NCBI GenBank assembly: GCA_024641095.1
Contig: JAHEDR010000001.1
Coordinates: 570,387-634,386 of the forward strand
Length of the DNA: 64,000 bases
Direction: 5' to 3'
Origin: Rhodoluna sp.
GTDB taxonomy: Bacteria > Actinomycetota > Actinomycetes > Actinomycetales > Microbacteriaceae
In this document: positions 20,244 to 23,848 of the stretch, piece by piece
How positions within the stretch are numbered: position 1 is the stretch's first letter
How the letters are laid out: the number at the start of each line of letters is the position of its first letter
Notes under the pieces: generated by a model
The model's input: only the letters and a program-made list of their open reading frames with translations
Told to the model about the DNA's origin: nothing
The model's database searches: none
Translations under genes and position numbers: made by a program

Positions 20244-20810
20244 ATGACCATCAGACCCATCTGCATCACCGGCGAACTAGTACTTCACGCTCGAGCCAAA
20301 GAGGTTGAAACATTTGATCAGGAGCTTCGCGACCTGGTTGAAGACATGTTCGAAACCATGGACAAGGCACCCGGCGTAGGGCTTGCCGCTCCTCAGATTG
20401 GTGTTGGCCTCAGGATTTTTACCTACGACTACGCAGACGATGAAGGCAACGAGCGTCGTGGCGTCATCATCAATCCGGTTTTGGAAATTGGTCCGATCGT
20501 TGACGAACCAGCTGATGAAGATACCGAGATAGAAGGCTGCCTATCTGTTCCTGGCGAAAGATTCCCGCTGAAGCGAGCCGAGAAGGCAATCATCACCGGG
20601 CTTGATTTAGATCAGAAGCCAGTTCACATCGAGGCCGAAGGCTGGTTTGCTCGAATCTTCCAACATGAATTTGATCACCTGAACGGCACTCTCTATGTGG
20701 ACCGTTTGGCAGAACCATGGAAAGAAATTTCTAGCGACATTATTGCCGATAACGGCTGGGGTAAGCCTGGGCTTTCCTGGTTACCAGGCAAAGATAATTT
20801 GGAAGCCTAA
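20244..20810 (+). CDS. def: peptide deformylase
   Basis: Removes the formyl group from nascent proteins, upstream of methionine aminopeptidase. The 188-residue metalloenzyme carries all three family motifs: GVGLAAPQIG, EGCLSVPGE (metal Cys) and QHEFDHLNG (metal His, His and catalytic Glu). A TAAATT element at 20232-20237 ends six bases before the ATG and there is no ribosome site, so the mRNA is probably leaderless. The stop overlaps the stop of convergent azlD by four bases. Confidence 0.96.
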   Translation: MTIRPICITGELVLHARAKEVETFDQELRDLVEDMFETMDKAPGVGLAAPQIGVGLRIFTYDYADDEGNERRGVIINPVLEIGPIVDEPADEDTEIEGCLSVPGERFPLKRAEKAIITGLDLDQKPVHIEAEGWFARIFQHEFDHLNGTLYVDRLAEPWKEISSDIIADNGWGKPGLSWLPGKDNLEA

Positions 20811-21118
20811 AGCCCAAACCACAATCTAAGCAGTGCAGCAACCAGCGCAGCCGCAGCAACCATAACCACAAACGGCACTCGGAAATAAAGCAAAATCGCA
20901 GCAACACCGATGGCCGGAATTCGTGCGTCGAGTTCAATTTGACCGCCAGCTGTTAAACCCTGCACACCCAATAGCGCTGCAAGCAGGGCTACGGTCAGCA
21001 AACTTGCGATTCTAGAAACGGTTGGATGATTTAAGACCGAGCTTGGCACCAAGAAACCTAAAATCTTCCACGAGTAAACCGCAGCACTAGCAATCAAAAT
21101 TCCTAGCCAAATATCCAT
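20807..21118 (-). CDS. azlD: AzlD-type branched-chain amino-acid transport subunit
   Basis: A 103-residue membrane protein with about four helices, the small partner of AzlC in an exporter of branched-chain amino acids (BrnFE in Corynebacterium exports Ile, Leu, Val and Met). The start ATG 21118 (MDIWLGILI) shares a base with the azlC stop (TAATG), which indicates translational coupling; a longer frame upstream would run inside azlC. Fits the family length of ~105. Confidence 0.87.
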   Translation of the reverse strand: MDIWLGILIASAAVYSWKILGFLVPSSVLNHPTVSRIASLLTVALLAALLGVQGLTAGGQIELDARIPAIGVAAILLYFRVPFVVMVAAAALVAALLRLWFGL

Positions 21119-21810
21119 TAGTTCTTCACCGCCTTTGGTGCCAACCAATTGAAGGCACCAACCACTACTGCTGCTACGCCGGCAAGAAGCACCGGAACAC
21201 CCGCAGGCAAAACCGGAGTGGTGATTGTGGCAATCAACAATGCAGCGGCGCCAACCGCAAGCGCCTGACGTTCAACAAGGCGCGGCCAAAGCAAACCAAG
21301 AAATGCCGCAGCAGCTGCTGCATCAAGACCCCAGGCACGTGGATCACCCAGCGCATCACCAAGCACCGCGCCAAACAGTGTCATGAGATTCCAAAAAACA
21401 AAAACGGCGGTTCCGGTAAGCCAGAATCCCTTGACCTGATCTTTTGAATCAGACTGCGAGGTTGCCACCGCTGTAGATTCGTCAATGGTGAGCAGCGCCG
21501 GAATCAATTTGCCTAGCCCCACCCGGTTCAAAATTGGCGCCATGCGCACGGCGTAAAAACCATTGCGAATTCCTAGTAGCCACGCAGAGACTACGGCCGC
21601 GCCAACACCAACGCCACCAACCGCTCCGGCTGCAAGTACTCCAACGAATGCAAATTGTGAACCACCGCTAAACATCAAAAGACTAAGCACCTGGGTTTGC
21701 CAGATGTCTAGACCGGCTGCAACAGATAGTGCACCAAAAGAGATTCCGTAAACGCCGGTGGCAAGACCCACACCAATTGAAATTGAAGTAACCGAAGACT
21801 GCTTAGCCAT
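21118..21810 (-). CDS. azlC: AzlC-type branched-chain amino-acid transport protein
   Basis: The larger subunit of the AzlCD (BrnFE-like) transporter. About 230 residues, with the family's early GLATGVYGISFGALSVAAG and GGSQFAFVGVLAAGAVGG motifs and around seven helices. I chose ATG 21810 (MAKQSS), which overlaps the last codons of the response-regulator gene (ATGGCTAA); in-frame ATG codons at 21819 and 21828 are alternatives. The overlap places the transporter in one operon with the two-component pair. Confidence 0.87.
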   Translation of the reverse strand: MAKQSSVTSISIGVGLATGVYGISFGALSVAAGLDIWQTQVLSLLMFSGGSQFAFVGVLAAGAVGGVGVGAAVVSAWLLGIRNGFYAVRMAPILNRVGLGKLIPALLTIDESTAVATSQSDSKDQVKGFWLTGTAVFVFWNLMTLFGAVLGDALGDPRAWGLDAAAAAAFLGLLWPRLVERQALAVGAAALLIATITTPVLPAGVPVLLAGVAAVVVGAFNWLAPKAVKN

Positions 21811-22477
21811 TTTTACCATCCGCCGCATTAATCGCTAAAAAGAGTTGAGCTCTGGTTGCCAGGCTACATTTGGCCAAGATAGCCTTCATAGCTTGTCTAA
21901 CTCGGTACTTGGGAATGTCTACACTGGCCGCTATTCGATCATCATCAAGGCCCTGCTTGAAGGCTGCAAGCACATCTGGCTCGCGCTCTTCCAGGGTTCC
22001 CAACTTCACCAAAATATCAGGCACGTCAAAAACCACATCTTTGGCGCGTGACATCAGCGCCTTTAGCGAATCAAAATCAAGGCTGTCTTCTTTTGATGCT
22101 GAAGTGCGAATGGCCTTTAGTAACTCCCCCGAATCGGAATCAAGAGTCACGAGATCGGTTGCACCAGCAGCAATGCTTGAAAGTAGCAGTTCATAACTGA
22201 AGTATGGCCCAGTCAAAATAATCGCCGGCACATCGGAGTCATTGGCCTGGTATAGCGGAATCAATTTTGAAACTAGTTGAATGCCGTCCATGCCGCGCAC
22301 TCGGTGATCAATCACCAAAACATCTAGCAGCGCCTCTGGTGCCCTCTCCAAGGAACCACTTGCGGTCTCTTCTTCAAACACAACCTTGCAATCTGATTGC
22401 GAATCAATCAGCATGCGGCGGCCAAATCTAATGTCGCTGTCGGCATCAATCAGCCCGATGCGCAAAACCTCGGTCAT
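21803..22477 (-). CDS. atypical LuxR/NarL-type response regulator
   Basis: A 224-residue receiver plus helix-turn-helix protein. The receiver has the phospho-acceptor Asp57 (VLVIDHRVRGMDG), an acidic pocket at Asp11/Asp13 and Thr89 (IILTG), but the conserved Lys before the last helix is absent: at the GYLLKD position the sequence reads DLVTLD, with Leu at about 112. The C-terminal region (about 165-220) aligns with a LuxR helix-turn-helix, but the usual TVKxH recognition stretch reads YRVRQA. The ATG lies two bases after the kinase stop, and the 3' end overlaps azlC. It likely controls genes with the kinase upstream, in a non-standard way. Confidence 0.82.
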   Translation of the reverse strand: MTEVLRIGLIDADSDIRFGRRMLIDSQSDCKVVFEEETASGSLERAPEALLDVLVIDHRVRGMDGIQLVSKLIPLYQANDSDVPAIILTGPYFSYELLLSSIAAGATDLVTLDSDSGELLKAIRTSASKEDSLDFDSLKALMSRAKDVVFDVPDILVKLGTLEEREPDVLAAFKQGLDDDRIAASVDIPKYRVRQAMKAILAKCSLATRAQLFLAINAADGKNG

Positions 22478-22479
22478 TG

Positions 22480-23745
22480 CTATTTGATTCCAGCTAGTGC
22501 GCGCAAGTGCGGGAAGATTGCCGATACGGTAAAGCCAACGCCAGGAACCCTGGTTGCTTCAATACTTCCGCCATAAAGGGCTGCACGTTCGCGCATTGCT
22601 GTAAGCCCTGCACCCTGAATGGTTTCCACCAGCGCGCGTACATCATCCTCGGCGGTGTAACCGGACTGCAAATCATCAATCGAAACTTCGGTTCGGCGCT
22701 TTGCCTCAACGCCATTGTCTTTGATTAGCACCTGCATGCCATCGCTCACCCATGAGAAATCGATAGAAACACTTGCGCCAACTACGCAGTGCTTCTTTAC
22801 ATTCTCAAGTGCATCAAAAACAATTCGGTAAATAGCCAGAGCAGCACCCTCTGAAATATCAAATCTTGCACCTTCGTGCGAAAGTGAAACGCTGTAGCCA
22901 AATTCACGATAGGTAATCACCAAGTCCTGTAGCTCGTCAATCCCCGGTGGAGCAGCAGAAACACTGTGGGTCTTGTTCAGCATGTCAAAGAGTCGGCGCA
23001 ACTCGGCATGTGCCGCCCTTGCACTTAGACCAACACGCTCTAGTGACCTTAGGGCCGAATTCACGTCTGCCTTGGCGGCATAGGCGCCACCCTCGGCCTG
23101 TGAAATCACCGCAGTTACTTTTTGAATGATGAGCTCATTGATATCACGAGCAATTTCAAATCTTTCATTCTGCTCGGCAACCTCTAGCGACAACTTGGCC
23201 TGAGTCTCCGCAGAGAGCGCACGGTCAAACTCAGTACCAACAAAAACTTCATAGGTGATGGCCAAGCGCCCAAGCAACCAGAACAAGATGTTTCCTGCCA
23301 CAACAACGCTTGCAAGCAGCACAAAAGCAGATGTCCTAGCTAGTTCATTATTGAGAGCAATGCCGTAGAGAGTTTTGCCAAACGGCAAAGCAAATGAATT
23401 TACCCAGGCAATTGCAACACCAACAGCAATGGTCACGGCCAAGGAAATTGAATACCAAACTCTAGAAACGAATGCCGCCGAGAGGAACACGGCAATCGCG
23501 GCGCTAAGCCCGCCTGAAACCGGTGAGAGCCCAAGCAAGAGCTCGGTAATAGTGCCAGCAACGGTAAACAAAATGCTCAGTGCCGGAATAGTTGGTGCAA
23601 ACAGCACGGCCGCAGCCAAAATAGCTGTGACGATTAAGCCGTTGTAGCCCTGGACCAGAAGGTCAATGCCGCCAAGGAAAAGTGCAGCAAAAGCAGCAAG
23701 AAGGGATGAGGAGAGCCATTTGTGATCTTGGATCCAACGTATCAA
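22480..23745 (-). CDS. NarL-class sensor histidine kinase homologue lacking the phospho-acceptor His
   Basis: A 421-residue membrane sensor: five or six hydrophobic segments over residues 12-160, a coiled linker, a HisKA_3-like helix pair (190-260) and an HATPase domain (295-415). At the place of the standard RELHD motif the sequence reads RDINE, so Asn203 replaces the phospho-accepting His. The ATP site looks intact: N-box DALENVKKH, G1 KDNG, G2 GAGLTAMRER. The start TTG 23745 follows a strong AGGAGG at a spacing of five, leaving little doubt. It is followed at once by its regulator and azlCD, and lies 27 bases downstream of tRNA-Asn. Confidence 0.82.
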   Translation of the reverse strand: MIRWIQDHKWLSSSLLAAFAALFLGGIDLLVQGYNGLIVTAILAAAVLFAPTIPALSILFTVAGTITELLLGLSPVSGGLSAAIAVFLSAAFVSRVWYSISLAVTIAVGVAIAWVNSFALPFGKTLYGIALNNELARTSAFVLLASVVVAGNILFWLLGRLAITYEVFVGTEFDRALSAETQAKLSLEVAEQNERFEIARDINELIIQKVTAVISQAEGGAYAAKADVNSALRSLERVGLSARAAHAELRRLFDMLNKTHSVSAAPPGIDELQDLVITYREFGYSVSLSHEGARFDISEGAALAIYRIVFDALENVKKHCVVGASVSIDFSWVSDGMQVLIKDNGVEAKRRTEVSIDDLQSGYTAEDDVRALVETIQGAGLTAMRERAALYGGSIEATRVPGVGFTVSAIFPHLRALAGIK

Positions 23746-23772
23746 CGTGGCCTCCTGATCTTAGAAAAAGAG

Positions 23773-23848
23773 TGGCTCCCCGGCTTGGACTCGAACCAAG
23801 AACCTATCGGTTAACAGCCGATTGCTCTGCCAATTGAGCTACCGAGGA
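23773..23848 (-). tRNA. tRNA-Asn (anticodon GTT)
   Basis: Cloverleaf on the minus strand: acceptor TCCTCGG/CCGGGGA with one T-G pair, D arm GCTCAATTGGCAGAGC, anticodon stem TCGGC-type with loop CTGTTAA (anticodon GTT), T arm TTGGTTCGAGTCCAA, discriminator G and encoded CCA. Confidence 0.96.

Follow-up and report, generated by a model that had tools for sequence, protein, structure and literature searches.

The window, the whole stretch of 64,000 nucleotides of Rhodoluna sp. (Microbacteriaceae) DNA analysed here, carries on its minus strand two adjacent genes with the outline of a two-component system. The open reading frames claimed for them in a preliminary description of the locus, 22480-23745 (-) and 21803-22477 (-), are present as claimed, and the end of the sensor gene is separated from the regulator gene by 2 nt. 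The sensor gene begins with TTG, ahead of which an AGGAGG Shine-Dalgarno sequence is recognised by eye, and its start lies 27 nt beyond a tRNA-Asn gene at 23773-23848. On the other side azlC overlaps the regulator gene and appears to share an operon with it. A scan for promoters and terminators returned signals no more frequent than in shuffled sequences. The closest named locus is that of Rhodoluna sp. Ww405, with 87% identity across the cytoplasmic part of the sensor.

20807..21148, minus strand: azlD (PF05437, 32.7 bits), overlapping azlC
21118..21828, minus strand: azlC (PF03591, 90.5 bits), with a 26-nt overlap with the regulator gene
21803..22477, minus strand: predicted pseudo-receiver regulator, 224 aa (Pfam match and model)
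21809..21982, minus strand: divergent four-helix HTH (aa 166-223), from the model; GerE match below cut-off
22097..22465, minus strand: receiver domain (aa 5-127), D57 kept, A12 and L112 replacing the acid and the Lys (DevR alignment)
22480..23745, minus strand: predicted pseudo-histidine kinase (sensor), 421 aa, TTG start (open reading frame)
22534..22614, minus strand: G2 region, G378-G404 (conserved glycines)
22615..22710, minus strand: ATP lid with a family-specific insert (Y363, D368, L372), from the alignment; D368 in 56/56
22711..22719, minus strand: G1 box, D343-N344-G345 (56/56 in the genus)
22801..22815, minus strand: N box, D311-N315 (conserved residues)
22975..23232, minus strand: DHp helical hairpin (aa 172-257), from the HisKA_3 match and model; best PDB match DesK
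23122..23136, minus strand: E204-xxx-Q208, counterpart of DesK D189/Q193 (profile alignment to DesK)
23137..23139, minus strand: Asn203, at the phospho-acceptor position (profile alignment and translation)
23245..23715, minus strand: membrane region, six predicted helices (aa 11-167), from the AlphaFold2 model and hydropathy

Residues and folds of the sensor and the regulator

The sensor has the domains of the HisKA_3 (HPK7) class, with Pfam matches to HisKA_3 (24.9 bits against a cut-off of 24, aa 194-257) and HATPase_c (29.4 bits, cut-off 26.4) and with N, G1 and G2 boxes; the acceptor histidine of the class is missing. When the profile of the family is aligned to DesK, N203 falls on the acceptor His, E204 on the Asp next to it and Q208 on the Gln, which are H188, D189 and Q193 of DesK (numbering and roles from an excerpt of PMC5231405). 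Translation of 23122-23139 (-) gives NELIIQ, that is N203-E204...Q208. Alignment and translation thus confirm the Asn203 that had been reported at the phospho-acceptor site. E204 and Q208 also supply the acid-xxx-Gln motif that is the sequence criterion for a HisKA_3 phosphatase. In the sample described in an excerpt of PMC12632262, the His is absent from 56 of 16,025 HisKA_3 domains. The AlphaFold2 model of the sensor (mean pLDDT 83.7, pTM 0.54) comprises six membrane helices, a two-helix hairpin and a GHKL domain, and its best matches are DesK structures, including the H188V and H188E mutants with nucleotide; according to the PDB entry titles, the His-less DesK H188V was crystallised with ADP and AMP-PCP. 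Judged by alignment and model, the sensor fits the definition of a pseudo-histidine kinase, a protein with the histidine kinase fold that would lack at least one histidine kinase function.

The regulator matches Response_reg (37.0 bits, cut-off 30.2), and its match to DevR (E 2.5e-24, profile positions 8-214) spans the full-length NarL architecture. Its GerE match reaches 12.9 bits, below the cut-off of 23.5, so that the regulator has the architecture of the NarL/LuxR type and not a recognisable GerE HTH; the earlier remark that its recognition helix is unlike the LuxR type holds for this reason. Alignment with DevR pairs D57 with the acceptor Asp, and the positions of the second acid and the Lys are occupied by A12 and L112. 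Codon 22142-22144 encodes this leucine, in agreement with the Leu previously described in place of the receiver Lys. The replacement of the second Mg-binding acid by A12 goes beyond that description. By these residues the regulator is a pseudo-receiver, a Response_reg domain without key phosphotransfer residues. Its AlphaFold2 model (mean pLDDT 91.1) shows the receiver fold in full and an output domain of four helices, and resembles LiaR, VraR, ChrA, NarL and DesR. TM-scores by query length, among the matches listed, are modest (0.37-0.60 for the regulator and 0.23-0.28 for the sensor) because domains are arranged differently and the membrane part is missing from the structures listed. Both folds are predicted to be intact. 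The same genome has ten receiver matches, and Lys is present at the aligned position in all nine besides the regulator of the window; three other HTH regulators have the Lys, and two of the other kinases, L009 and L010, have a similar helix in which, by eye, a His is retained.

Conservation and selection within Rhodoluna

Sixty-seven Rhodoluna genomes were searched, 22 of them good (completeness of 90% or more, contamination of 5% or less). The regulator was first found in 56 genomes, including 21 of the 22 good ones; when the remaining 11 were searched with profiles, G356 proved to have a complete pair and G372 a kinase truncated where its contig stops, which brings the regulator to 57/67 genomes and leaves it at 21/22 good ones. 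Nine of the 67 genomes, among them G020 with a completeness of 94%, yielded no kinase in the profile search. We read 57 loci, from 56 genomes and the window, taking one of two matches in genome G340. The kinase is present in 56 of these loci and its acceptor site is readable in 54, two kinases being truncated at residue 203 and the stretch read of locus L206 containing no kinase. Wherever both genes are present (56/56 loci), they lie on one strand with frames that overlap or are at most 15 nt apart.

The acceptor His occurs in none of the 54 sensors (Asn 25, Ser 16, Thr 12, Ala 1), and the regulators have neither the Lys (0/57) nor the second Mg-binding acid (0/57). The preliminary description had allowed that its reading would fall if orthologues carried His and the window a unique mutation; within the genus this does not hold, and a unique mutation or an assembly error is ruled out by the loss of the His throughout the genus loci read. 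The orthologue alignment proposed there gave a divided answer, with no His and no Lys in Rhodoluna but His in relatives outside the genus. Asp57 of the regulator, reported as kept, is present in the window but retained in only 42/57 genus regulators (Glu 9, Gly 3, Asn 2, Ala 1), and Thr89 stands in 36/57.

Could another residue take the phosphate? His246, which had been named as a potential acceptor, lies in the second hairpin helix of the sensor model and is retained in 33/54 genus sensors, while Ser or Thr occupies position 203 in 28/54. However, neither is conserved: other alignment groups have Leu, Ile or Val at position 246, and a regulator without the second acid and the Lys is a poor fit to such a route. 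With so partial a retention, His246 is an unlikely acceptor, and transfer through either of these residues is hardly credible.

In contrast to the lost or drifting positions of phosphate chemistry, the ATP site is kept. N315, D343, N344, G345, G378, G402 and G404 are each found in 56/56 sensors, and position 311 is acidic (Asp or Glu) in 55/55. Of the 159 columns of the catalytic domain 15 are invariant, and these include six of the seven named ATP-site columns, all but G380; this enrichment (hypergeometric p 1.6e-6, or 2.5e-7 without G380) refers to columns named after the alignment had been seen and ignores relatedness. An ATPase domain with N, G1 and G2 boxes, as first described, is therefore upheld by six positions at 56/56 in the genus and by the presence of G380 in the window. 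G380 of the G2 box is kept in 34/56 sensors and lost in 22/56, and His is replaced by Asn at position 319 in 4/38, so that ATP binding may differ among lineages.

The residue next to the acceptor position (+1) is acidic in 53/54 sensors and position 208 (+5) is Gln in 43 of 54. As the acid-xxx-Gln motif is retained, a phosphatase or docking role toward another regulator is possible; the E204/Q208 face would provide either a surface for docking or the chemistry to dephosphorylate another regulator. The sensor might then act on another two-component protein, either as a dedicated phosphatase or as the partner of a kinase that has a His, in the manner of DivL or the ChrS pseudokinase, with the pseudo-receiver as adaptor or competitor. 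HisKA_3 phosphatase activity is independent of the His, the Gln positioning water (excerpts of PMC5231405 and PMC12632262); ChrS-HrrS heterodimers, described in an excerpt of PMC9491836, provide a precedent for kinase pairing; and the two His kinases L009 and L010, identified by eye, and the three HTH regulators with Lys are candidate partners. However, the co-operonic regulator cannot be the substrate, position +5 is Glu in ten sensors and Asp in one, no conserved target was come across in an unsystematic look, and PMC12632262, in the portion cited, argues against a general phosphatase role of His-less HisKA_3 proteins. We regard action on another two-component protein as rather unlikely.

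The output domain is less constant. The HTH is lost in two of the 57 genus regulators (133 aa) and is unrecognisable by eye in L082 and L139, therefore the output is not one fixed DNA-binding act. Is the pair simply a remnant, still decaying, of a two-component system that has been lost? Besides the two losses of the HTH and the nine genomes without a sensor, the divergence of both proteins is in keeping with decay: over 32 taxa the mean distance is 0.85 for the catalytic part and 1.67 for the receiver, against 0.41-0.62 for four neighbours. Eleven pairs of loci were tried for dN/dS, ten of which were near-saturated at synonymous sites, and only L076/L077 was usable. In this pair the sensor has a dN/dS of 0.033 and the regulator one of 0.082; values for the neighbours run from 0.024 (dnaG) to 0.135, with def at 0.364 on a dS of only 0.06. 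These ratios demonstrate purifying selection on both the sensor and the regulator in the one measurable pair. Values so far below 1, an intact regulator in 57/67 small genomes and main ATP-site residues that stay invariant at a mean identity of ~42% render a relic highly improbable. Rate covariation was not discriminating as a test of coupling between kinase and regulator, since the partial r of 0.36 for kinase and receiver is comparable to that for kinase and dnaG (0.49) or def (0.35).

Gene neighbourhood and family history

In 35/57 genus loci azlC comes next on the same strand, and in two the contig ends. In 20/57 azlCD is gone, def abuts the regulator and the pair is retained; the pair is therefore not kept solely to control azlCD, and a regulator dedicated to azlCD is ruled out. 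In other genera the order dnaG-dehydrogenase-sensor-azlC was found in 8/10 stretches read, with def next in seven, and the gene parse of the other two (L169 and L170) contained no family sensor. Outside Rhodoluna the sensor lies directly before azlC, within 900 nt and without a receiver gene, in 19/36 Gln rows and 11/25 His rows, and in 8/8 parsable small-genome loci. A sensor that works with the AzlCD transporter and has the regulator as a late companion would account for this arrangement, but not for the 20 loci in which the pair stays where azlCD is gone, and we hold it to be quite improbable.

A sensor match at E 1e-20 is present in 173/299 Microbacteriaceae genomes, a count that includes ordinary kinases. 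The lid insert ahead of the G2 box is common to the closer relatives of the sensor. The aligned rows numbered 158, of which 141 were distinct and 115 remained at 90% identity. The acceptor letters of the 141 distinct rows are His 56, Gln 36, Asn 22, Ser 10, Gly 8, Thr 6, Asp 2 and Ala 1; 31 of the His rows are canonical outgroup kinases, and 25 distinct family rows outside the genus carry His. In Pontimonas the His is present at the same gene order. Because relatives outside the genus have the His, its loss is lineage-specific.

For a quick maximum-likelihood tree, 149 rows were reduced to 121 by dropping identical or nearly identical ones, and the acceptor and 311 columns were excluded. The family forms one clade (support 100), with Rhodoluna as one clade inside it (100). 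The minimum number of changes between His and not-His on this tree, whose inner branches are partly weak, is seven. With the His-bearing outgroup, these changes are read as losses, in Rhodoluna, a Cryobacterium-Leifsonia clade, genus g82, L119, L134, L143 and L146; given the weak support of several inner branches and the length of the L143 and L146 branches, seven is an estimate. The loss of the His was followed by two different fates: the Cryobacterium-Leifsonia clade has also lost the N-box acid (0/43), whereas Rhodoluna has kept it. A correlation between N-box acid and His can draw on only three independent pairs on supported branches, too few to give such a test any power.

Where did the regulator come from? 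Of 79 loci outside Rhodoluna, related species being counted apart, nine have a receiver gene after the sensor; eight of these sensors have His and that of L119 has Gly. The best receiver matches of the Rhodoluna regulator are canonical Micrococcales pair regulators (five rows, 98-74 bits), and the best stand-alone receiver match, at 7712-8119 of L119, scores 66 bits, the label being assigned per locus so that the upstream canonical regulators of those loci also fall under it. This ranking suggests that the regulator is closest to canonical Micrococcales pair regulators. The membrane region matches canonical kinases with an hhalign probability of 92.8%, which is weak given membrane composition. 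These two similarities make it probable that the pair arose from a canonical HisKA_3-NarL pair that was complete.

A candidate contact switch and its precedents

How might such a pair signal? With the acceptor His and the receiver Lys absent from every genus protein read and the ATP site invariant, His-Asp transfer between sensor and regulator is, from sequence, very unlikely, and we put at roughly 55% the probability that the sensor and regulator form a pseudo-kinase/pseudo-receiver pair that exchanges no phosphate and acts as an ATP-gated protein-contact switch. A contact switch is preferred because the positions of phosphate chemistry are lost or drifting and the ATP site is not. The six-helix membrane part would take in the signal, which, together with ATP presumed to be bound, would determine which conformation the helical hairpin adopts. 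In turn the hairpin would dock and release the regulator, and the output would pass through the HTH by putative DNA binding or, where the HTH is lost, through the receiver. The preliminary description had proposed a system working without classical phosphotransfer. Its core stands on the absent His and Lys and the retained ATP site; it had not recognised that the loss is lineage-specific and had overlooked the phosphatase or docking role. A bolder form of the proposal, which we advance tentatively and with less than even confidence, is that the whole pair has been converted, genus-wide, into a phosphotransfer-free switch in which GHKL ATP binding or turnover would carry the signal by contact only, and that the passage from relay to contact may be a repeatable route, the His having been lost some seven times in the wider family.

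Pseudo-histidine kinases, such as DivL and the ChrS pseudokinase, and pseudo-receivers are already known, separately. Among solved relatives, DesK of Bacillus subtilis comes closest to the sensor in both profile and fold, and it shares the hairpin, the catalytic domain and the acid-xxx-Gln positions; the regulator has DesR, the partner of DesK, as one of its fold matches; however, the HisKA_3-NarL pair DesK-DesR has an acceptor His and a working receiver, both of which are lost in the Rhodoluna pair. In DivL of Caulobacter the acceptor His is replaced, the kinase motifs are kept and the protein acts through regulator contact (excerpt of PMC4211667). Unlike the Rhodoluna sensor, with Asn, Ser, Thr or Ala at the acceptor site (Tyr in 0/54), HisKA_3, membrane helices and a pseudo-receiver partner, DivL has Tyr, PAS domains and a phosphorylatable partner. 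The ChrS pseudokinase of Corynebacterium glutamicum is likewise an actinobacterial pseudokinase that still shapes signalling, but it arose from a laboratory frameshift in the catalytic domain and acts via a paralogous kinase (excerpt of PMC9491836); ChrA matches the Rhodoluna regulator by profile and fold. Pseudo-receivers, or atypical response regulators, have the receiver fold without phosphotransfer residues, as does the Rhodoluna regulator, and those named in the consulted part of PMC12632262 include JadR1, BldM and CmrT. According to the same excerpt, characterised examples are greatly enriched for orphans or stand beside an apparently normal kinase (CmrRST), whereas the partner kinase in Rhodoluna is degenerate too. 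HEF_HK/Response_reg_2 pairs, in the account excerpted from PMC8011034, likewise consist of a kinase-like gene linked to a receiver-like one, neither of a classical family, but belong to other domain families and to restriction-modification loci, and both domains are absent from the Pfam matches of the Rhodoluna pair. Our literature search, in which subscription journals were thinly covered, found no recognised conserved operon with both partners degenerate. What is new here is the conserved co-operonic combination of a degenerate sensor with a degenerate receiver, each half being of a known kind.

What are the implications for signalling by degenerate two-component proteins? The switching of pseudo-receivers is called a mystery in the cited part of a 2025 review (PMC12632262). 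In Rhodoluna the partner of the pseudo-receiver is fixed, encoded in the same operon and still equipped with its ATP site, the genus offers natural variation at the catalytic positions, and another genus has His-bearing relatives in the same gene arrangement; signalling without phosphate is therefore directly testable in this family.

Surroundings of the pair in Rhodoluna

At 23745-23848 of the window, 27 nt lie between the tRNA-Asn gene and the start of the sensor gene, and in at least three of the loci compared (L068, L070 and L071) the sensor reading frame stays open back towards the tRNA. Beside the pair, azlCD occupies 20807-21828 of the window; it is cleanly absent from 20 of the 57 Rhodoluna loci, where the sensor–regulator pair is retained and the neighbour gene def adjoins the regulator gene. 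Some Rhodoluna regulators consist of the receiver only, at about 130 aa (L196, L198 and L078), and the contigs of the latter two, equal in length, are probably one and the same.

Other signalling genes of the same genome

An orphan-looking NarL-type regulator is encoded in the window's genome at 1396-2121 of stretch L154; its acid pair is changed to Asp-Arg, and the Asp and Lys are retained. At 568-2717 of L009, from the same genome, lies a second HisKA_3-like kinase, in which the His is retained as judged by eye; the gene after it encodes a membrane protein of 325 aa, possibly kinase-like as well.

His-less relatives outside Rhodoluna

Kinase-like relatives of the sensor are found in Cryobacterium, Leifsonia, Compostimonas and Glaciibacter (L091-L135), with Gln or Gly in place of the acceptor His. 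The N-box acid is likewise gone from this group (0/43), and in Leifsonia and some of the others a canonical kinase–regulator pair lies directly upstream of the kinase-like gene. Gln also occupies the acceptor site in g82 (L164-L167), a second small-genome genus, which the tree of the sensor family places apart from Rhodoluna.
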